Assembly (NCBI RefSeq): GCF_022376445.1
Contig: NW_025955168.1
Span: 1-64,000 of the forward strand
Direction: 5' to 3'
DNA from: Fomitopsis serialis
Taxonomy: Eukaryota > Basidiomycota > Agaricomycetes > Polyporales > Fomitopsidaceae
DNA length: 64,000 nucleotides
Within the stretch, counting starts at the first letter, position 1. Every line of letters begins with the position of its first letter. A program made the translations under genes and the position numbers. Shown piece by piece: positions 45,251 through 64,000 of the stretch. Under the pieces are notes generated by a model. It ran no database searches. It saw only the letters and a program-made list of their open reading frames with translations, and was not told where the DNA came from.

Positions 45251-45808
45251 AATCATGGCGGACTTCTCTTTGGTCCTCACGTTCGACTCTTCGTAGCCTG
45301 GACTTTCGCATTGGGCCGCATATCAGCATCAGGGCTTGCTCGGAGCACCAGTATACCGGACACTCGGCTGCGCTGACGTTCACTCGGTTCCTGTTCAGTA
45401 CTGGCCTGGGATGAAACACGAATTATCCTATCCTAGATTCAGTGTGGCCAGTGTGGACAAGGTTCAATCTGAAATATCCACTACTTTAAGGTTCGTCTCA
45501 AGGCAAACTTTGTACGGTCAGGCAATGTCTCATGGTTCTTTCTTCCAGGCATATCTCGGATGGCGTTAGACTCACTAAGCCGGCTCCCATGATGTTGGAC
45601 AGGCCTTATCATAAGCCTGTCATTGGGTCTCGACACATCTTATGCTGTTCTGCTCAACGCAACATAGACGCACAACATACCAGAACAGAGAAGCCTGTCA
45701 GTCCATCCACTCGCGGCGGTGCACTGCCATACCGATATGCATATAGAGCCTAGCTATACTCCACGCCTATGCATACCACGTCCCGCCTTCCACTGGTACC
45801 GCCACACA

Positions 45809-47058
45809 ATGGGGGCGCTCCCTATAGCAGAAGCGCAGCTGGTTGCGCTCTTCATGCAGAGTGTGACCTATGGCGTCCACATGGTGACGTTCGCTATCTG
45901 CATATATACTTGGTTCAGTCGCTCGAGCAGCTCCTGGACATCGGCGTCGAGGATTTGGTTGTCTGTCGCCATCGCCTTCTTCGTCATCGGCACTTGCGAT
46001 GTCTCCTTCAATTTGTATCATAATCTCATGGCGTTCGTCCTCCCTACGGCGTCCTCCGGCGCAAACACTGTTTTTGATCAAGCGAGCAATTGGGTCAACG
46101 TGATTCGCGTACGTACATAGTGCATTGGGTCGACTTGTATGACTGATGCAAGGTTCGCTCTAGAGCGTTTGGTTCTATATCGGTGCTTCCCTCTCCGACG
46201 CAGCCTTGGTAAGGGCAATGTTTGAATATATGTATCTGCGTGTATTCACTTTTGCGTATGTAGATTTACCGGTGCTGGATGGTGTATGCCAGTTCACGCC
46301 ATCGGGCGATAGTCGGAATAGTACCTCTGGTACTCTGGCTCGCATGCATAGCCTTCGCGGTAATGATTTTATACATCTTGGGCACTTTGGATGCGGATAC
46401 CACTATACCCGAGATACCACAATTGCAGCCATACCTATACTCGTTCTATTTGACGACAGTTGTCCTGAATCTCCTCACAACCGGTGCGTTGTCTTCCAGG
46501 TCCCTGGTGTATGACATAAACATTTCTGACGCTGTAGCATTGTCGGTCGCAGGTCTAATCATCTTTAGACTGTGGAGGGCTCATAAGCGCACTTCATCGT
46601 TCTTCACGCGGAGCTGGCGCGTTCGGAGTCGACTCAGCTTAGCGAATGTCATCTTGATTATGGTCGAATCCGCGCTTCTGTACACCACAACCGTCGTGAT
46701 CAGCGTCGTCTTGGACCTTGCAAGATCGAATATGTACTACGGTGTCGCTGACATTGTGAGTACTCTACAATTGATGACTGTTGTACCTGAGCTTTTGACG
46801 CTGATTCGTAATTTGTAGGGCCTCGAAGTCGCCGGCATTTCTTTCGATATGATCATCATCCGTATCTGGACCGGGGTATCGACGGAGCAGACGCAGGCGT
46901 TCGCAGCAACTCTGCCAAACTTATCGAAGTCGAAATCGGAACCAGGGGACCAGGTCGTCTCTGTTCACTACGGCTCAAAAGATCTGAACGCGGCCGAGCT
47001 TGTGGTTTCCCGTGTCGAAGTGATCGAGTGGCAGGGAGCTGATGAGAACCCTGTCTGA
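45809..47058 (+). CDS. Seven-helix membrane protein, array member 3
   Basis: Five exons: 45809-46108, 46164-46208, 46264-46483, 46553-46755 and 46819-47058; phase closes to 335 residues. Start MGALPIAEAQLVALFMQSVT; then FFVIGTCDVSFNLYHNLMAF, SVWFYIGASLSDAAL (the 45-nt exon), IYRCWMVYASSRHRAIVG, LLTTGLIIFRLWRAHKRTSS, ANVILIMVESALLYTTTVV, and GLEVAGISFDMIIIRIWTG. It is most similar to member 4 at 51183, its counterpart in the segmental duplication. Function unknown. Confidence 0.87.
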
Positions 47059-47259
47059 TGTTTGACATCGTTCAGTGACCCTCGACTCCGCTGCTGCTCG
47101 TGATTCCTTCTTATGTATAACGGGTCATACAAAGTATGGTAAGGCTCTGTAGTAACGTAGTATATGTATTCTGCGACGCTTGTACGAGGTACTGCGGTGC
47201 TACCAAACTTGAAAGCACAGACCCGTCGACCGTGCAACAGTATTTACCACTGATTAGCT

Positions 47260-48230
47260 AAGGATTGGCTATTGCCCTCGTCAAATCACTGGTATTCACA
47301 AGACCAGTCACTTTTCTATCGGCGCGTTCACTTCGAATCCTGCGACAGGCGGAGCCAGGTGTCGGAGAGAAGGCGTGCGTGGCGACGACAAACCCACACC
47401 ACACGCGTACTCGTCCTAGATGCAGGGAGGTCGGATGGTCGAGATGGACGAGGGCTCGGTGGAGGACGACGGTGGATGTCTATAGCACGAAGTTAGGCCG
47501 CCGAGACTCAATGAAACACTTACAAATGTCGAACGCGACTCGACGTGATTCTACTCGACTTGCGACTCGACTTGCTTTGCACCCGCGACCGCAGTTGTCG
47601 CGTCTAAGTGCCGAGGTCGGGACAGCGAGGCGAGAGAGAGAGCGAGAAGTGGGGATCTGATTCGATGGAGAGACGGGCAGCTCAGCCCAGTACTTAATAC
47701 ACACGAGAGGAGTTCTAGAACCTTGGAAGCGCGAGAGGGATAAAAAAGTAGAAGAGAGGGAGAGAGACGTCGGCGAGTGAGAGATGGTTCGAAAGAAGCG
47801 CGAAGCGTGAGTGTTTGACGTATCGGGAAGGAATGATACCTAATAAGGAAAGTATTGTACAGCAGGCATATGGGCACCCTCCTGGGCGACGGACGTCCCT
47901 TGAGTCCCCTTCCAGCGTTGACTGACGAACCCTTGTCTCGGTACGTGATTGGCAGCTCGCACGCGGTGCTATTTACTAATCGCGACCTGGTCCCCCAGCA
48001 GGTGCGGCACTCGGCGTCGCGGCGCTCGTCTCGTCCTACTAGTGGGTCCGCGTCGCGGCCTTCCGGTTCGTCGCAGGCGCGCCGGTAGAGTCGAGAGTAA
48101 CGTAGGGAATTGTAACGAAAAAGAAAAAGAAAAAGAAAGACGTGGGATGGGTTCCCTTCCACACAGGTCAACTATATGTGAACCTACAGCTATGCTACGT
48201 ACAACATTCGAACACACGTCATACATAGCT
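47260..48230. mobile_element. Possible LTR-type insertion in unit A
   Basis: The interval between the two seven-helix genes is about 580 bp longer in unit A than in unit B. The extra DNA is purine-rich on the plus strand (gagagagagagcgag near 47635, gagagggagagagac near 47755), has a gactcgac-rich patch near 47540-47580, and ends near a simple repeat of aaaaag at 48118-48140. It looks like LTR sequence, but I found no clear TG...CA ends or target-site duplication and no coding part. Confidence 0.25.
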
Positions 48231-48499
48231 TAGTGTGTACATCAGTGAGCAGCAAACACAGCGCTGTGCTTGACGCAAAGTTCGCAGACAGACTGGCAGC
48301 TTGCACCGTACAAACGAGAGCAGCCATTCCTGTCAAGAGTCGTTCTTGCCATCGACGAAGCAAATGGTGCGAAGGTTGTCAACAAAGGGCGATACGGCCC
48401 TGCTGTGCTCCACCGAAGTCGCCTCTCGGGTGTCTCGTCGTACTTCACGCTGTTTATCCAGCCCATATGCAAATCGTGGGCTCTGCTCCGCCGTGACGG

Positions 48500-49050
48500 C
48501 ACGCTAGATCCGTATGACGACTTCGAATGTGATGCCGGCGAGCTCCGTGCCCAGATACTGAGGAAACGTCAGGTCGTCTCGTACAATGTTGCTTACAAGT
48601 TCACCGGTGCCGCAGTAAGCATCCGACATTGCGAGCTCAACGGTGACACTGGCTCCGATCGAGAGGGTAGTGCAGGCTGAACGAATATCCAAATGACACT
48701 CTTGACGCGGTCTGTGCCAAGCCAGCTGCTCCTGAAGAGGGCAGTGGTATGATGGCCGGATGTACGTCCTAAATGCCATACACGATCAACTTGCCTGGAC
48801 GTGGTCGTTTGAGCATACAAACTGAGGAATGTGTCTCGCGCTGAGCGCACCTGTCGCCATGTGCAATGCAGGGGTTGTGACGAGGTACGTGGTCAAGTCC
48901 GGTCGAAGACATCCATGGCCACGACCCGGCAGTTCTGAGTGAGTCTCAGAGTGTAAACCAGATATACACGCACTGGGTGACCACGTTGACGCCATACGAG
49001 ACGGGTTCCATGAACAACGCGACCAGCTGCCGGCGATGCACATAGGCGCA
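48500..49050 (-). pseudogene. Seven-helix membrane protein fragment (unit A)
   Basis: The minus strand keeps an N-terminal piece near 49030 (QLVALFMEPVSYGVNVVT, then QCVYIWFTL) and a C-terminal piece at 48500-48680 (VTVELAMSDAYCGTGEL, ELAGITFEVVIRI). Most of the middle is missing and frames are broken. The closest relative is array member 5 (53307-54543), its counterpart in unit B. Confidence 0.7.
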
Positions 49051-49225
49051 TCGCTGCCGAGTACGTTCGGTGTACGACAACAACGAGTCGCCGATTATGT
49101 CCTAGCACAATCATCCAGACGCCTCGGCATTGCAGCATCATCAAATCATACCTGACCTAAGAGCATAATCCACACGACTCTCACGACCTTCACCATTGAC
49201 GTGAACCACGAGAAAGATGATCAGC

Positions 49226-50629: not shown

Positions 50630-51182
50630 GAGATCGGATCGCTTCTATGTGGTCCTTACGCTCGAGGTTTGTAGCCTGAACTCCTGCATTGGGCATGTAT
50701 CAGGGGGAAGGGCTTATTCGGAGCGCCGCTATACTGGACAGCTCGCTGCGCTGACATTATTCGGATCCTCTTTAGTACTGGCCTGGGGATGGAAACGCGG
50801 GGTCTCTCACCGCAGAACCAGTGTGGTCAATCTGAAGTATCCGCTCTACCGTCAGGTTCGTCTCAAGCAATATATGGTCAGGCAATGTCTGAATTGGATT
50901 TCTTCGATTCAGGCACATCTCGTCCAGCGTCAGACTGTCACACAGCACTCATGAGGTCGGACAGGTGTCATCGTAAGTCCGCCATTGGCTCTCGTCAAAT
51001 CTCGAGTCAACCCAACTTAAGCATGTAACATATCGAGGATAGCGAAGCTGTCAGGCCATGCACCCGCGGCGGTGCACCGCCATACCGACATGTATATAGG
51101 GCATAACTCTACTCTATGTCTGAGGTATAAACGTCCTGCCACATACCACGTCCCGCCGGAGTTCCATTGGTACCGCCACGCG

Positions 51183-52441
51183 ATGGGGGCGCTCCCTATA
51201 GCAGAGGCGCAGCTGGTCGCGCTCTTCATGCAAAGTGTAGCCTACGGCGTCCACTTGGTGACGTTCGCTATCTGCATATACACCTGGTTCCGTCGTTCGA
51301 GCAACTCCCGGACATCGGCGTCCACGATTTGGTTGTGTGTCGCCATCGCCTTCTTCGTCATCGGCAGTTGCGACGTCTCCTTCAACCTGTACCACAACCT
51401 CATGGCGTTCGTCCTCCCTGCTACAGCGTCCTCTGGCGCGAAGACTGTTTTTGACGATGCGGGCGATTGGGTAAACGTGATGCGCGTACGTAGTGCATTT
51501 GGTCAGCGTGTTTTGTGTGACTGATGCAAAGTTCACTTCACAGAGTGTTTGGTTCTATATGAATGCTGCCCTCTCCGACGCAGCCTTGGTAAGGACAATG
51601 TTGGGAAATACGCACATCAACGTGTATTCACTCTTGCGTATCTAGATTTACCGGTGCTGGATGGTGTATGCCAATTCACGCCATCGGGCGATAGTCGGAA
51701 CAGTACCTCTAGTACTCTGGCTCGCATGCATGGCCTTCGCTGTCACGATTGTGTACTACCTGAGCACTGTGGGTGCGGATACCACTATACCCATGATCCC
51801 GCAACTGCAACCCTTCCTATACTCGTTCTATGTGACGACACTTGTGTTGAATCTCCTCACGACCGGTGCGTTGTATTCCAGGTTCCGACGTATGTCAAAT
51901 GTGTCTCTGACGCTGTTGCATCGTCGGTCGCAGGTCTAATCATCGTCAGACTGTGGAAGATTCATAGGCGGACTTCAGCAGACTTCGCACAGACCTGGCG
52001 CGTTCGAAGTCCGAGTCGACTCAGCTTCGCGGATATCATCTTGATTATGGTCGAATCCGCGCTCCTGTACACCACGACCGTCGTGTTCTGCGTCGTCTTG
52101 GATCTTGCCAGGACAAATGTGTACTACGGGATCACCGATATCGTGAGTCACCCACATCGGACTGTCGTACAGCTTTTGACATTCTGGTTTGCCATTCGCA
52201 GAGCCTCGAAGTCGCCGGTATCTCCTTCGACATGATCATCATCCGTATCTGGACCGGGGTGTCGACGGAAGAGACGCAGGCATTCGCGGCAACCCTCCCC
52301 ACCCCGTCAAAATTGACAATGGAACGGATGGAACAGGCAGCCTCTGTTCACTCAGGCTCGACGGATCTGCGCGTGATCGATCTTGCGGTTTCTCGTGTCG
52401 AAGTGGTCAAGTGGCAAGGATCTGACGAGAACCCTGTCTGA
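51183..52441 (+). CDS. Seven-helix membrane protein, array member 4
   Basis: Five exons: 51183-51485, 51544-51588, 51646-51865, 51934-52142 and 52202-52441; phase closes to 338 residues. Begins MGALPIAEAQLVALFMQSVA and follows member 3 closely: FFVIGSCDVSFNLYHN, SVWFYMNAALSDAAL, IYRCWMVYANSRHRAIVG, LLTTGLIIVRLWKIHRRTS, ADIILIMVESALLYTTTVV, SLEVAGISFDMIIIRIWTG. Exon 4 is 6 nt longer than in members 1 and 3. Close similarity to member 3, including about 300 bp of shared upstream DNA, fits its place in the segmental duplication. No known function. Confidence 0.88.
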
Positions 52442-53306
52442 TGCTTGGCGACCATCGACTACGGTGCTGGTCAAGATCCCCTTCTGCGTGGCAGGCTATG
52501 AACTACTTTTGTAACTTATAGCCCGAGAGGTGAGGGACATAAAACATGTATTCTACGACGCTTACACGAGATGCTGCGGCTACTGAACATGAAACCACGA
52601 TCATGTCGAACGCAGCAGAACCACACACCAGTCAATTCTGCCTTCGAATAGCCCCAGCTCTCCGCCGGTGAGCTTGTGGCGTCCTCTGCATCGAGGTCAA
52701 AGTCATTGAAGATTCATCAAGAGCCCATCGTTATGGCGGCTCACCGCAGTTCCACAGGGCCCGTCATACCCAGTGGTCATATCGAGGACAGTCGCCATAC
52801 TCGTACCTGCGCTTCTAAAAGTGCCCATGTTGCCAGTCAAAGTGGTAGTGGTGTTCGGGAACCGTAGTCCTCTCTGTCCCGCGGTCGGGATGATTTCCGT
52901 TGAAAAGTCGAACCTGACCACATTGATCCACGCAACGACGTTCGCGGCTTGGACTTTCCTGGGGATCTGCAAGCTGGTTATGGGTGACTGTCGTTGTCTT
53001 TTGCATCGATGCTCGTGTTGGCACCATCGACTCCTCACAACGTCTCCGTACTTCGCTTCTCTGCATCAAGGGTGTCACTCACAATACAGTGATAGGGGCG
53101 GAAGCCAGGTACAAAACAGTATAGATGAGGCTACAAATACTCTACAACATTTCGTTATGGTACTATACAATGATACGCTTCAGAGCATTACACCAATGAG
53201 CAGGAAAGCAACAAATTACTCAACGAGGACGTCATTCAAACCTCGCGGCGTGCGTCGCAGTCGAACGTACTGACCGCCACTAACGCCGTCGCCGTCTAAC
53301 AGACAC
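52442..53306. other. Intergenic, convergent genes
   Basis: About 865 bp between the stops of members 4 and 5. The first 200 bp resemble the DNA after member 3 (47060-47260). No gene seen. Confidence 0.5.
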
Positions 53307-55706: not shown

Positions 55707-57427
55707 TCACTGCCGCACGGGCGGCGCGACCTCCGGCAGGTTCGCGCCCATGTTGTCCGGGAGCGCCAGCGTCGGGTCCGTCTGGCTATTGAGACGACCA
55801 CCAAAGAGCACAGTCCCGTTCTCCGCGCGGAACTGCTCGATGCGCTTCTCGACTTCTGGGCGGAAGTGACGCATGAGGCCTTGAATCGGCCATGCCGCGG
55901 CGTCGCCCAACGCACAGATCGTGCGGCCCTCGACCTGCTTGGTGAGCTCGAGCAGCATGTCAATCTCGCGCTGGTGACCCCGGCCCTCGACGAAGCGGTC
56001 CATCATGTTCATCATCCAGGTCGTGCCCTCTCGGCAGGGCGTGCACTGCCCGCAGGACTCGTGTTTGTAAAACTAGGGACAATGCTGGATCAACCGAAGA
56101 AGATAACGCAGAAGAAGGTACTTACGTGAGCGAAGCGTGCAATCGCCTTGACAATGTCAGTGCTCTTGTTCATCACAATGACCGCACCCGTTCCGAGGCC
56201 CGATTGTAGGTCCTTGAGCGAGTCGTAGTCCATCCTGACGTACAACATGAGTCTCCGGCTGGACTCAAGTTCACATGTCAACTCACAGTGCCTCCTCGCA
56301 CTGCTTGATAGGCAGAACAGGGACGGAGCTGCCGCCAGGAATAATTCCGAGAAGGTTGTCCCACCCGCCAATCACGCCACCACAGTGCTTCTCGACGAGG
56401 TCCTTGAGCGGGATACTCATCTCCTCTTCAACCACACAAGGGTTGTTCACATGCCCGCTGATGCAGAACAGCTTCGTGCCCTGGTTCCGTGGGCGGCCAA
56501 AGCCCGCAAACCACGCTGATCCGCGCCTGCAGATAGTTGGCGCCACCGCGACGGTCTCGACGTTCGCCACAGTGGTCGGACAGCCAAACAAGCCGACGTC
56601 CGCAGGGAAAGGCGGCTTGAGGCGCGGCTTGCCTTGCTTGCCCTCGATCGACTCAATGAGCGCCGTCTCCTCACCGCAAATGTAAGCACCCGCGCCACGG
56701 TGCAGGTACACGTCGAAAGCATATCCACTTCCGCAGGCGTTCTTGCCGAGAAGGCCCGCAGCATACGCCTCGCTGATGGCCTGCTGTACGTGAGACGCCT
56801 CTTGGAAGAACTCGCCACGGATGTAGATGTACGCCGCGGTCGCGTTCATCGCACGGCCAGCTACGAGACAGCCCTCGATGAGCTTGTGTGGGTCACCGCG
56901 CAAGATCTCTCTGTCCTTGCATGTCCCCGGCTCTCCTTCATCAGCATTGACGACGAGGTAGCGGGGTCTGGCCGGGGTCAGCTTGGTCTATATGCAGGGA
57001 CATGCGGAACGGACCGTGGATCTTTCTCCCATCCAGGCTTGTTCATGAAACTCCATTTCAACCCACTGGGGAACCCAGCCCCTCCACGACCCCTTAGACC
57101 GGAGTCCTTGATGGTCTGGATAATCCACGAGTCACCCTTCAGAACGATATCCTTCGTTTTGTGCCAGTCACCCCGAGCCTGGATGGAATGGGGTTAACAG
57201 AGGGGTCGCCGGGCAGGGTTGAACGACCTCACCTGTGCACCTTTCAATCCATGGTCATGCCTGCAGTTCGCATTGGTGAAAATGCGGTCCTGGTCCTTCA
57301 GGCCCCCATATCGCCTCGGCGGGGGGTCCTGCACCGTAGCGAACGACCGCCGCAAGTTGAGCTTCGCCCGGAAGGGCCTCGCTATTTCTGTGAAAGACGT
57401 TGGAAATAATGTTAACACTGATTGCAT
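55707..57427 (-). CDS. NUO51: NADH dehydrogenase 51-kDa flavoprotein (complex I)
   Basis: NDUFV1-type subunit of mitochondrial complex I; oxidises NADH and carries FMN and a 4Fe-4S cluster (N3) on the matrix side. Five exons: 57427-57233, 57178-57015, 56967-56287, 56234-56126 and 56072-55707; phase closes to 504 residues, normal for the family. The basic presequence [12 protein letters not shown], then [10 protein letters not shown], suits mitochondrial import. Motifs: [16 protein letters not shown] (nucleotide/FMN site), [35 protein letters not shown], and the cluster ligands [11 protein letters not shown] plus the later Cys in [15 protein letters not shown]. The tail ends [11 protein letters not shown] partial pseudogene copy lies at 49226. 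The start at 57427 was chosen over an upstream in-frame start because it gives a classical presequence. Confidence 0.95.
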
Positions 57428-57775
57428 GCGGTCAGAAATGGAGGAGACAGCGACGCACGCGAGGAGGACGATGCTCTGAGCATCGTCGTGGTCGATGAGC
57501 AAAGGGTGTCTGGCGATTGGCCCAGCCGCCGCCGTATGACGGGCCAGCGACCGCGAGCGCTTACTGATCGTACCCGGGCAACCCCGAGTTCCTCCCCCCT
57601 ATTTTCCCGGCACGTGCGATTCCCGACGCGCGACCGGCCCGGGCAACGCGTCGACATGGTCCGGTCGAGTCGTCGAATTGGAATCTCCAGTCAAGCAAGT
57701 CTGCAAGTTGACTCTGACCGGTACGATTGCTGTGCACTGGGTGAGACAATCTATCTTTTGACATGAAAGATAACA
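57428..57775. promoter_or_regulatory. NUO51 upstream region
   Basis: About 350 bp of normal GC composition between the NUO51 start and the sharp edge of the AT-rich block. It must contain the NUO51 promoter; no TATA box is obvious. Confidence 0.45.
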
Positions 57776-58648
57776 AAAAAGAGGCCTTACAATTTCAAAA
57801 TCCTTTTTCCATGAATGATTGCTAAAATGATTGAGAATATTTCATTGATCCCTGTGCCTGAGGTATTGCAAAAGGATCCCATACAGGATTGTGAACAAAT
57901 TTTATGTGATCATACCCATGTACTTCATGGTCAATGATAGAGTAAGGATTCTGAACAACTTTTGAATCTTTTGTGCCCTAAGGATTGCAGAAAGATTTGA
58001 AACCAGATCACAATGGCCTGGTATGTTATAATTTCTTTGACTTCATGCAGCAAATGATGGCAAACTGATACTGAATCTAACACAAGTGAGTTACTCATAA
58101 AAGATTGAAACCTAATGTTGAAGACCACAATTTTGGATTATGTATCAATATCTTGCAGTGAATTATGGAGAACTTATCAAGGATCATATCTCTGATCTTC
58201 TGGATGGAAGTGTGCCTATAGTATAAGAGATATTGTGGAGATGGTGACTGTCATGCAGAGTATATAATCTCAACTTCCTCCTTCTGCTATCTTTCCTTGC
58301 ATGAGATAATGGCCAGCAGTTTCATCACCATGCAACACTAGGTACAAATCCTATTGACATCATCAGCTAGGAAAGATATGTCACATATGGTCACAGCCTG
58401 TTATGAATCACTCAGTCCAACAAGATACATAAATGATTGTGACAGGTGTGTTATCAATCCATTATGTACAAGTGGCTCAGAAAGATGTAAGAATGATTGT
58501 GACAGTGCCTGTCACAGGAGACTACTCCACCCAATGATGAGATGGTGCTATTGCAATACATGTGAATACACTTATGCAAGGGTATGCACCAGTGACACTG
58601 AGCTTTTGTACATGTACATGTACAAGTGGCACATGTGAATGCATAAGT

Positions 58649-59807
58649 AACACAGTGTGGGACTGGTGCAAATTTGTGCACTCAAGTGACACCCTGGCTG
58701 TGCATGTGGGCATCATCAAGCATGACTGGCATGAGAGCAGGACAAATAATGTTACAAATTCCCATGCACTGGCTAGGATGTACCAGTGCACCATGGGGGT
58801 GCCAATGTACAAATAGCACAGTATGGGACAAATACAAACCTGTACATACCAGTGACACCCTGGATGTGCACGTGCCTATTGTTGGACATGACTGACACCA
58901 GGGCAATACAAGTCACATGCCAGATTCCCACACACTGGCTAGGATGTACAAGTGGCACATGTGGATGTACATGTAAGACAGTACAGCATGGGTACAGATT
59001 TTTACACTATAGTGACATCCTGGATGTGCTTGTAGGTATTGCCTGACATGGCCATCACAACAGTTGTACAAGTCATATGTTGGATTCCCAAGCACTGGCT
59101 AGGATGTACCAGTGGCACATGTGGATGTACAAGTAACACTGTATGGGGTGGGTATGAAACTAAATGGTTCAATGATACCCTGAATGTGCATTTGGGAATT
59201 GACAGGCATGATCAACACAACAGCTGTACAAGTAACATTTTATATTCCTGTGTAATGGCTAGGATGTACCAGTGGCATGTGTGGATGTACAAGTAACACC
59301 ATACAGAATGGGCATGCACTTGTACACTGCACTGATGCCCTATATGTGCACATAGGTGTTATCAGACATGACAAGCACAAGGACAGTGTGAGTGACATTT
59401 TGCATTCCTGTGCATTGGCTGGGATGTACAAGTGGCACATGTGGATTTACATGTAACACAGAACAGGACAGGTACAAACTTGTGCACTATTGTGACACCC
59501 AGAATATGCCCATGTGCATTACCAAATGTGACTTGCACGAAAGTGAAACAGATAATAAGTCAAATTCCCATGCATTGGCTAGGATGTACCAGTGGCACAT
59601 GTACATGTACATGTAACACAGTATAGGATGAGGACACACTTATATGTTCCAGTGACACCTTGGGCATACATGTACAGCATATCAAAGTTTGCTTGCACAG
59701 GAGCAGTGCAAGTAATATTTCAAATTCTGATACACTGGCTAGGATGTACAAGTGGCACATATTGTTGTACATGTACCACTGCACAGCATAAGTAACAACT
59801 TGTACAC
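58649..59807 (+). repeat. Palindrome left arm, 160-bp satellite array
   Basis: Pairs base for base with 59899-61057 (position i with 119706 minus i). A landmark, ggctaggatgta (once ggctgggatgta), begins at 58771, 58937, 59097, 59257, 59417, 59577 and 59737: one step of 166 and five of exactly 160 bp. Each unit carries a gtgacacc box, a variable middle, and tacaagtggcacatgtggat-type sequence. Units differ from one another by perhaps a quarter of positions, while the arms appear identical. Confidence 0.93.
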
Positions 59808-59898
59808 TTTAGTGACACCTATGCTCCAACACCTAGCTAGTGCATGGGAATGTAACCTGTGTTGATCAGGTCTGGTAATGCACACATACACATTCTGG
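59808..59898. other. Palindrome spacer
   Basis: 91 bp of unique sequence between the two inverted arms. It contains cctagctagtgcatggg and gttgatcaggtctggtaatgc, which look like rearranged pieces of the satellite unit, but it is not itself inverted. Confidence 0.85.
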
Positions 59899-61057
59899 GT
59901 GTACAAGTTGTTACTTATGCTGTGCAGTGGTACATGTACAACAATATGTGCCACTTGTACATCCTAGCCAGTGTATCAGAATTTGAAATATTACTTGCAC
60001 TGCTCCTGTGCAAGCAAACTTTGATATGCTGTACATGTATGCCCAAGGTGTCACTGGAACATATAAGTGTGTCCTCATCCTATACTGTGTTACATGTACA
60101 TGTACATGTGCCACTGGTACATCCTAGCCAATGCATGGGAATTTGACTTATTATCTGTTTCACTTTCGTGCAAGTCACATTTGGTAATGCACATGGGCAT
60201 ATTCTGGGTGTCACAATAGTGCACAAGTTTGTACCTGTCCTGTTCTGTGTTACATGTAAATCCACATGTGCCACTTGTACATCCCAGCCAATGCACAGGA
60301 ATGCAAAATGTCACTCACACTGTCCTTGTGCTTGTCATGTCTGATAACACCTATGTGCACATATAGGGCATCAGTGCAGTGTACAAGTGCATGCCCATTC
60401 TGTATGGTGTTACTTGTACATCCACACATGCCACTGGTACATCCTAGCCATTACACAGGAATATAAAATGTTACTTGTACAGCTGTTGTGTTGATCATGC
60501 CTGTCAATTCCCAAATGCACATTCAGGGTATCATTGAACCATTTAGTTTCATACCCACCCCATACAGTGTTACTTGTACATCCACATGTGCCACTGGTAC
60601 ATCCTAGCCAGTGCTTGGGAATCCAACATATGACTTGTACAACTGTTGTGATGGCCATGTCAGGCAATACCTACAAGCACATCCAGGATGTCACTATAGT
60701 GTAAAAATCTGTACCCATGCTGTACTGTCTTACATGTACATCCACATGTGCCACTTGTACATCCTAGCCAGTGTGTGGGAATCTGGCATGTGACTTGTAT
60801 TGCCCTGGTGTCAGTCATGTCCAACAATAGGCACGTGCACATCCAGGGTGTCACTGGTATGTACAGGTTTGTATTTGTCCCATACTGTGCTATTTGTACA
60901 TTGGCACCCCCATGGTGCACTGGTACATCCTAGCCAGTGCATGGGAATTTGTAACATTATTTGTCCTGCTCTCATGCCAGTCATGCTTGATGATGCCCAC
61001 ATGCACAGCCAGGGTGTCACTTGAGTGCACAAATTTGCACCAGTCCCACACTGTGTT
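59899..61057 (-). repeat. Palindrome right arm, 160-bp satellite array
   Basis: Reverse complement of the left arm. Every open frame in one arm has a partner of the same length and sequence in the other where it lies fully inside, and hand comparison of several stretches shows no mismatch. The arm ends at 61057, within the first four bases of the copia LTR (61054), while the left-hand satellite goes on outward for a further partial unit. The retrotransposon therefore probably cut off this arm. Confidence 0.93.
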
Positions 61058-61501
61058 GATGCAACCAACAGAGCGAGCACGAGTCGTCAGGCTGTAGCAA
61101 ACAGACGACGACCTCAGATCGTGCTCGGGAAGACGAGGCAAGAACTGTATTGGCATACCTGTAGCAAACAGACGACGACTACGAAGTAAGTGAGTACAGG
61201 TATGCGAGACACAAAAGCTAACTACTCACCCTCAGATCGTGCTCGGGAAGACAAGGCAAGAACTGAGGGTGCGAACGCGGCGCGAGGGTATAAGTGGGCG
61301 AGCGAGCGAGTTAGGTACGAGATACGAGACTGTCCGTAAATGGTAATGAATGTACGGATGCGCACGGCGGGCACGGCGGGATAAGAGAACGGAACGGCGC
61401 ATTGGACAGCGCGTAAGCAGCATGCAGTAAAGAACGAAAAACGGGTATAGTATGAAGCCGGAGAGCCGGCGAGGACGACGTACGGATTGTCGGCTCCAAC
61501 A
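61054..61501 (-). repeat. Ty1/copia LTR (3' LTR in element orientation)
   Basis: 448 bp with terminal TGTTG...CAACA. On the minus strand it begins TGTTGGAGCCGAC immediately after the polypurine tract at 61502-61512 (GAGGGGAAG), as expected for the 3' LTR. It carries internal duplications: gtagcaaacagacgacgac near 61093 and 61161, and ctcagatcgtgctcgggaag near 61112 and 61231, the second followed both times by ggcaagaactg. Confidence 0.85.
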
Positions 61502-61514
61502 CTTCCCCTCAATC

Positions 61515-64000
61515 CTAAACGAGTCCGAGTGCAGCCGCAAAGTGCTTGACTTTGGGACTCGGTAGCGCCTTCGTGAGCGCGTCGGCAACCATCTCGTCGG
61601 TCGGGCAGTAAACGAGTGTGAGCTTCTTGTCGGCGATGACCCAGCGAATGAAGTGAAAGCGGATGTCAATGTGTTTCGTACGGGCGTGGTACTGGTGGTC
61701 CTGGGTGAGTGCGATGGCGCCGAGGTTGTCAGAGTTAAGCGGGATGGGCTCCGTGAACGGCGCGAAGACCTGGCCAATAAGGGAGCGTAGCCAAAGGGCC
61801 TCCTTCGACGCATGCGTGATGGCGACGTACTCCGATTCAGTCGTGGAGAGAGAGATGATCTCCTGGCGTTTCGATGCCCAAGAGACCGCGCCGCCGTCGA
61901 TGAGGAAAGCGTACCCAGAGATCGCCTTGCGATCCTCGTGCATCGACCCATCTGCGTCGGTGTACCCAACGAGGTCGAGCGAGATGGCACCGTAGGTGAG
62001 CTTCAGCTTCTTCGTTCCAGCGAGATAGCGAAAAACGCGTTTGACGGCTTCCCAGTGAGCGCGCCCAGGGTTCTGCGAGAAACGAGCAAGGATAGATACG
62101 GCGTAGGTGATGTCAGGACGAGTGCCCAGCGACGCGTACATGAGCGAGCCAACTGCCTCTCGGTACGGGATGTTGCGCATCTCCGCGGCTTCGGCGGTCG
62201 TCTGCGGCGACTGTGTGGCAGACAGCTGAACGTGCGGGTCCATCGGCGAGGACACGGGCCGCGCGTCTTCGAGGTTGTACCGCCGCAGGATCGACTCGAT
62301 GTACACTACCTGCGAAAGCGAGAGGGTCCGGGCCTCGCGATCACGCTCAACAGCGAAGCCGAGGATCCAATGGATCTCTCCTTCGTCCGTGATCTCGAAG
62401 TCCTTCCGTAGGTTCGTTTTCACCTCATCCATAAGCCCTACTGACGCGACAATCGTCAGGTCGTCAACGTGTACGCCCATTGCAATGAGCTTGCCGCGCT
62501 CCGAGCGGTAGAACACGGCCTGGTCCACATCACATGCGGACATGCGGAGGCGCTTCTGCAAGACGCCGCGCAGCTTCTGGTGCCAGTTCCGCGCGCTCTG
62601 GCGAAGGCCGTACAGCGGGCGCAGCAGGCGCAGTACGAGGGACTTATCCTCGGTGAGTGTCAGACCTGGCGGCAGTGCCATATAGATGACCTCGTTCTCC
62701 TCGAACTCGCCATTCAGGTATGCACTCTTAATGTCCACCTGGTGCACATCGAGGTCGTGGCGCGCTGCAAACACGAGCAGGGTCCGAATGGACGCCATCT
62801 TTGCAACGGGCGCGTAGGTGTCGAAGAAGTCAACTCCGGGCACCTGTGAGAAGCCGCGGGCAACGAGGCGTGCACGGTAACGGTAAACGCTTCCGGCTGC
62901 GTCTTTCTTCGCATGGAAAACCCATCGGCAACTGACGATATTCGCGCCCGGCGGGGGCCGCTCGAGACGCCACGTCCCGTGCGCTTCGAGCGCGCGCAGC
63001 TCTTCCTGCATCGCCTCCTGCCAGCGCAGCCATTCCGGCCTGCGTTTTGCTTCCGCCAGCGACTGGGGGTCCAAGCCCTCGACCTCAGCAATCTGCGCGG
63101 CCATGGCAGCGCCTGAGACCTCTTCAAGCAGCTCGGCAGCACTGTCCTCAACTGGGACCTGCACACCGCGAGGTACGTCGCTATCTGCGCCCTTGCCAGT
63201 GAGGATGTCACTGACTTTCTGCGACGGCTTGCGGACGCGCGTTGGCCGTGGCGCTGGCGGCGGTTCAGGGATCTCGGGCTTAGGAGAAGCGGGCGGTGTA
63301 GATGGCTCGACAGCGGGTTCGTCAGAAGACTCGTTATCAGAGTCGGAGGAGTCGGCGGTGGATGCGGGCTTGCCATTGCCCGGCTCCTGCTCCCCTCAAG
63401 CTTGACATCCTCGACGACAGCGGGCGGCGAGCTATCGCCGAAACGAACATTTCGCTCGACGGTAATGCGGTGAGCCTCCTCCCAATAAACTCGGTGGCCC
63501 TTGCTCTGACTGTCGTATCCGACCCATCGCGCAGCCTTCGCACGTACGCCGAGCTTTCCAGTCGACGTGTCGTGTACCCAAACACGGCAACCCCAGATGG
63601 GCAGGCCTACTAGGGTGGGCGGGCGTCCATTAACAGCCTCGAACGGTGTCCTGCCGCCGAGCGCTTTGGTGGACGTGCGGTTCTTCAACCACACAGCATG
63701 CATCACAGCCTCCCCCAGAGGTTCGCTGGCATCCCGGATGCGATCAACATCGCCCGGGTCTTCTCCATCAGCGTGCGGTTCAGGCGTTCCGACACGCCTG
63801 CCTCCTCGTGGGTATCATGCACGGAGAGCTTCTGCGTGATGCCGCGCGCCTCGAGGTGAGTCTTAAACTCTTCGCTGAGATACTCGCCGCCGCGGTCGGT
63901 GTTTAACACCTCCAGCCGCTTGCCATGGTGGTTCTCCTGCCACGCCTCGAATGCCTTAAATGCTTCGAAGGACTCGCTCTTCAGACGCAGCAGGTAAGCT
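61515..64000 (-). pseudogene. pol: copia pol: integrase, reverse transcriptase, RNase H (partial)
   Basis: The minus-strand reading begins off the window end with the integrase core (VLNTDRGGEYLSEEF, HEEAGVSERLNRTLMEK), then the copia-type NRTSTKALGGRTPFEAVNGR block near 63660. The reverse transcriptase (about 62950-62200) shows YAPVAKMASIRTLLVFA, HQVDIKSAYLNG and the catalytic HVDDL; RNase H follows (VGYTDADGSMHEDRKAISGY, LSTTESEYVAITHASKEALW, TKHIDIRFHFIRW). The stop is at 61515. Single missing bases, each in a run of G, break the frame near 63712 and near 63395. The protein would be one polyprotein if these were errors. Confidence 0.85.

Follow-up and report, generated by a model that had tools for sequence, protein, structure and literature searches.

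A large palindrome in Fomitopsis serialis is a transposon with arms built of a 160-bp tandem repeat

The palindrome described here resembles both the foldback-like elements of Drosophila and the CACTA/EnSpm transposons of plants and fungi. In the available part of its description, the Drosophila virilis foldback element Tetris is like the present element in having long inverted repeats with internal tandem repeats (~220 bp) and an outer flanking domain, in lacking a transposase, and in having no autonomous partner found (PMC4079207). Galileo, a foldback-like element of the P superfamily, shares the long, internally repetitive inverted repeats in the accessible portions of two accounts (PMC3573991, PMC3688188). 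The same partial sources place Tetris and Galileo in superfamilies other than CACTA (PMC4079207, PMC3573991, PMC3688188). Excerpts of further papers describe CACTA elements in fungi (PMC1636069) and fungal EnSpm families with CAC..GTG ends and 3-bp duplications (PMC12730594). Among the literature matches listed, which covered few subscription journals, we found no account of foldback CACTA elements in fungi.

We analyzed a window of 64,000 nucleotides of Fomitopsis serialis (contig NW_025955168.1, here C122, positions 1 to 64,000) within its 66-Mb assembly of 806 contigs. The palindrome in this window is real, larger than first noted, and a transposon. It is very probably a nonautonomous cut-and-paste transposon of the CACTA/EnSpm type, with a foldback build and satellite-built arms.

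Extent and insertion site of the element

Within the window, two stretches of 1,159 bp, 58649-59807 and 59899-61057, form inverted repeats without a single mismatch, with 91 bp between them. The initial annotation had described this geometry and was correct about the identity of the arms (1,159/1,159) but wrong about both outer edges. The left arm starts not at 58649 but at 57735, since the stretch 57735-58648 is repeated on a second contig, C181, where positions 48208-49121 are identical to it (914/914 bp). The supposed right edge at 61057 is merely the point at which a copia long terminal repeat (LTR), with a 5-bp target duplication, breaks the right arm (61056/61057), and C181 carries what is left of that arm together with the right flank. 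The complete left arm, with its CACTGGGTGAGAC end, spans 57735-59807 on the plus strand (2,073 bp). The inner part of the right arm (59899-61056, minus strand) is its exact reverse complement, the last five bases (61052-61056) being the copia target duplication. Altogether, the arms agree at 2,073/2,073 sites (1,159/1,159 inside the window plus 914/914 against C181), and the element comes to 4,237 bp when the nested copia is left out (2 × 2,073 + 91). For the 1,101 bases around the center, the predicted single-stranded fold is one long hairpin (−671 kcal/mol).

Each arm has two domains. The outer domain contains a terminal box (57764-57795, plus strand), common to a second family of elements; the genome contains 15 exact copies of it, none of them outside the two families. 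It also contains a subterminal box, GTCACA[CG]CCTGTTATGAATC (58390-58409, plus strand), a candidate transposase-binding site with 37 exact places in 66 Mb. The inner domain is a tandem array of a 160-bp unit, with 7 to 8 units per arm; the left array (58618-59820, plus strand) has seven complete units plus part of another. The 160-bp period reported initially recurs in both arms, as does the greater divergence of units than of arms: pairwise identity among the seven full left-arm units is 58 to 74% (mean, 66%), against 100% between the arms. The 91-bp spacer, in contrast, is not unique as had been thought. A profile of the 160-bp unit matches 59962-59832 on the minus strand (E = 1.4e-21), which takes in 67 of the 91 spacer bases and assigns them to one more unit belonging to the right array. 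Most of the palindrome center (59808-59898) is thus an incomplete satellite unit, oriented like those of the right arm.

The right side of the element was followed through the nested retrotransposon. C181 runs from a foreign left flank into the arm stretch, then a complete copia with a 5-bp duplication (ACACA), then inner arm, and then ends. On C122, the right arm stops at the same point as that of C181 and is followed by the same copia in opposite orientation. The copia occupies 61057-64000 of the window (minus strand; 3′ LTR at 61057-61501, RVT_2 in an open frame at 61515-63395), continuing to C122:66316 and the contig end, and C181:48208-49121 is followed by its counterpart at C181:49128-54748. 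Over 5,250 aligned sites, the two are separated by a single substitution and 20 indel columns; we take them to be one copy, and the reversed C181 therefore continues the right-hand side of the window. The inner arm on C181 is 97% rather than 100% identical to the window, with clustered mismatches (14 substitutions and 26 indel columns in 966 aligned bases) that, given their position near the contig end, we read as contig-end errors. The palindrome structure itself probably explains the contig break and why C181 stops inside an arm.

A third contig, C50, carries the empty site. The flank at 57000-57734 aligns to C50 up to the last base preceding the palindrome, and C50 runs from the C122 left flank straight on into that of C181 in reverse. 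The sequence is ..GCTGTG-CACTGGG...CCCAGTG-GTGTCG.. in the filled allele and ..GCTGTG-TCG.. in the empty one, so that the trinucleotide GTG is present twice in the filled allele (left copy at 57732-57734, ending the C122 left flank; right copy on C181) and once in C50. The element has therefore inserted at this position with a 3-bp target site duplication. Over the first 60 kb of C50, matches of at least 400 bp follow C122 collinearly between 41189 and 57734, in diagonal blocks 90 to 99% identical. On the other side, they follow the reversed C181, to which blocks of more than 1 kb are 95 to 99% identical, and two shorter ones 85% and, inverted, 75%. We read C50 as the homologous chromosome in a two-haplotype assembly, which would place the palindrome on one of two chromosome copies. 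The same region of the window also contains a direct duplication of ~1.8 kb at 79% identity (45263-47064 and 50642-52447), among paralogous stretches from 40.8 to 56.6 kb.

Related elements and alternative readings

A genome search with an outer arm of a second family gave 15 matches at 8 loci, comprising five two-ended elements (C1, C112, C212, C366, and C445) and three one-ended or truncated ones (C56, C161, and C396); C366 and C445 are known from their 40-base ends and the places of their boxes and outer arms only. A search with the 17-base end of the window element at up to three mismatches (176 places, 100 of them listed, against 72 in the control) led to this family and served as a lead only. 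The relatives elsewhere in the genome share the inverted build, and each arm of C212 contains an array of 152-bp units, 8.4 of them in one arm and 8.6 in the other. The ends are CACTGGG..CCCAGTG in the window element (57735 and C181) and CACTGG..CCAGTG in all five two-ended relatives. Perfect and mutually different 3-bp duplications (GTG, GTA, GCA, GAA, AAA, and GGA) flank 6/6 two-ended elements, including that of the window. Local alignment of the outer arms of the two families scored 70, compared with a best score of 35 in 300 dinucleotide shuffles, and on this sequence comparison the two families are related. Between the array units no relationship was detected, which counts against the main reading: a profile of the 160-bp unit gave no significant match in the second family (best E, 0.076).

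The boxes also link the two families. In the 66-Mb assembly, all 15 matches to the terminal box at up to three mismatches are exact and lie inside these elements, with 0 in the control. The subterminal box has 45 matches at up to three mismatches (8 in the control), of which the 37 exact ones are all in these elements; the remaining eight lie outside them and need three mismatches. With CAC..GTG termini, a 3-bp target duplication, and repeated subterminal motifs, the element has three features of CACTA/EnSpm transposons, the repetition being weak in the window element, where each arm has one exact subterminal box against two to three in the second family. It also has the long inverted repeats of tandem subrepeats, with little or no middle, that define a foldback build. 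The fold-back element offered as one option in the initial annotation was the right one, as the empty site, the 3-bp duplications, and the related copies elsewhere attest. Mutator-type target duplications of 8 to 10 bp are absent, all 6/6 two-ended elements having 3 bp, and the element, while foldback shaped, is outside the Mutator foldback lineage.

Among other explanations, the one that fares best accepts the transposon but assigns it to a different superfamily that makes 3-bp duplications, whether PIF/Harbinger-like or Plavaka; we consider this unlikely. Harbinger elements and a number of Plavaka elements likewise have 3-bp duplications in the accessible part of PMC12730594, which gives Plavaka termini as TGT..ACA or CATCA..TGATG, against CACTGG..CCAGTG here. 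The genome does contain at least 139 matches to the Plavaka domain (PF18759; 123 of 323 candidates scored), many with internal stops. Harbinger elements prefer TWA targets, which contrasts with the six target sequences listed above. The ends speak against Plavaka and the targets against Harbinger.

Less probable still is an assembly fold-back artifact, in which the second arm is the first one read again from the other strand. Such an error would account for arms that are 100% identical and for a contig, C181, that ends inside an arm with clustered errors, as happens where assemblers struggle. It would not, however, put a copia on the right side only, nor give the two ends different flanks that adjoin each other in C50, nor produce a matching GTG target duplication, nor repeat the inverted build in related elements at other loci. 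The initial annotation had reached the same conclusion from the supposedly unique spacer; that argument fails, the spacer being mostly satellite unit, while the conclusion holds by way of the different flanks contiguous in C50. A satellite of centromere or heterochromatin, also proposed at first and here taken to have been inverted by chance, is highly improbable: the 160-bp tandem unit and an A+T content higher than that of the surrounding DNA would suit it, but an assembly-wide DNA search with the arm (E ≤ 0.001; counts are lower bounds) matched only C122 at the window locus and the very end of C181 and found no free satellite arrays of the unit, neither long arrays (7 to 8 units per arm) nor many loci were seen, the element has precise ends, a target duplication, and an empty site, and one exon of the gene for the complex I 51-kDa subunit lies ~0.75 kb away. 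In the 120 best of 7,712 relatives of the neighboring gene, the first to bear a species name is from Mycena chlorophos (88%).

Several features of the other loci were recorded alongside these comparisons. One finding sits less well with the model: opposite the C1 element, the homologous contig C517 has no clean empty site. Its match to the C1 left flank breaks off no more than 3 bp from the element, and ~1.38 kb of different sequence (C517:2534-3915) then fills the place opposite the element before the right flank resumes. The right array of C1 contains a 266-bp G+C-rich insert (C1:328111-328376; L041:1512-1777) with inverted ends TGTAGCGAACC..GGTTCGCTAC, which looks like a nested miniature element. 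At C56, no left arm was found in the sequence read upstream of the array, and the open frame next to the array, similar to an ABC1/UbiB-type kinase, is taken to be a host gene. A stretch of C170 (15500-20300; L040), first picked as a possible CACTG element, proved to be an inverted gene pair rather than a transposon: two divergent coding regions, presumably related to sugar transporters by their resemblance, lie in inverted repeats 91% identical over 1.5 kb.

Arm homogenization and CpG depletion

The arms of second-family elements are homogenized. Within single elements, they differ at 2/2,976 sites in four elements (2/931 in C1, 0/784 in C212, 0/768 in C112, and 0/493 in C161), against 10.8 differences per kb between arms of different elements (32 pairs among nine arms). 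Variants private to one element sit in both of its arms (eight in C112, five in C161, two in C1, and one in C212), and the numbers of exact subterminal boxes are equal between arms (3 and 3 in C1, C212, C366, and C161; 2 and 2 in C112 and C445). Changes therefore spread from arm to arm, and the pattern supports gene conversion, or the rebuilding of one arm on the other, as the route in this family. The early suggestion that the arms are kept identical by gene conversion thus gains support from the private variants of the second family, whereas the window element is a single copy in its own family, and homogenization of its arms may be supposed by analogy with its cousins. The nested copia was considered as a clock and rejected: its 445-bp LTRs differ at 5/445 sites and the arms at 0/2,073, but because each of the five LTR changes is a transition at CpG, of which the arms have almost none, the contrast says nothing about conversion. 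That the LTR changes are all at CpG does suggest that CpG deamination acts on transposons of this genome.

The arm of the window element has 2 CpG in 2,073 bp (observed/expected, 0.02; TpG+CpA, 1.87), whereas among 223 overlapping segments of equal length to the left of the arm the lowest ratio is 0.92. Measured stretches of C112, C212, and C161 have ratios of 0.02 to 0.08, and the C1 arms 0.08; the whole C1 element reaches 0.36 owing to the G+C-rich insert in its middle. The copia LTR has a ratio of 1.44. Because outer arms at different loci are ~99% alike, CpG was probably lost before the copies spread, a loss likely due to the deamination of methylated CpG. One may speculate that a CpG-free state helps the elements stay mobile. 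A more elaborate and rather doubtful idea is that of a still-mobile, nearly CpG-free lineage that could be invisible to CpG methylation in a genome with normal CpG in the rest of its DNA, as far as measured, with the palindrome as the transmitted form and pairing of its arms repairing changes or fixing them in both. If true, such a self-correcting, methylation-blind element would be new. Since copies almost without CpG have spread, escape from methylation can be put to the test.

Possible mechanism and comparison with described systems

No open frame longer than 124 amino acids (stop to stop) was found in the window element or in the parts read of C1, C112, C212, C161, and C56; ATG frames of the window element reach 90 amino acids at most. 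The Transposase_21 domain (PF02992) has 27 matches in the genome, 25 above the cutoff and 26 without stops inside the matched domain. None is tied to the ends described here, as there is no subterminal box at 0 to 2 mismatches and no terminal box at 0 to 3 mismatches outside the elements. We propose that a CACTA-type transposase supplied in trans would recognize the CACTGG end together with, presumably, the terminal and subterminal boxes, excise the element, and reinsert it by cut and paste with a 3-bp duplication. The arms may pair with each other as a hairpin, in which case arm-to-arm conversion would keep them identical, while unequal exchange could make the arrays grow and shrink.

The combination of a foldback build with CACTA-type ends supports the idea that foldback structure has arisen repeatedly, and the nine loci in two families offer natural replicates for the persistence of near-perfect palindromes and for arm-to-arm conversion. 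Compared with this element, Tetris as far as its available description goes has target duplications of 8 to 10 bp, leading its authors to suggest the Mutator superfamily, instead of 3 bp with CACTGG ends, and free satellite arrays of its unit are known, whereas none were found for the unit of the window element (PMC4079207). Galileo copies are bounded by 7-bp sequences rather than 3 bp, and the longest repeats reported in Drosophila mojavensis, in the portion of the source at hand, are 1,260 and 1,241 bp at 95.2% identity, against 2,073 bp at 100% here (PMC3573991). With CACTA/EnSpm elements of plants and fungi, in the parts of two accounts available, the present element shares CAC..GTG ends, 3-bp duplications, and repeated subterminal motifs, and some plant copies contain a satellite array (PMC12730594, PMC8978399). 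The form set out in the accessible text of the second account has subterminal repeats of 10- to 20-bp units within several hundred bases, whereas in the window element inverted satellite arrays of 2 kb make up nearly the whole (PMC8978399).
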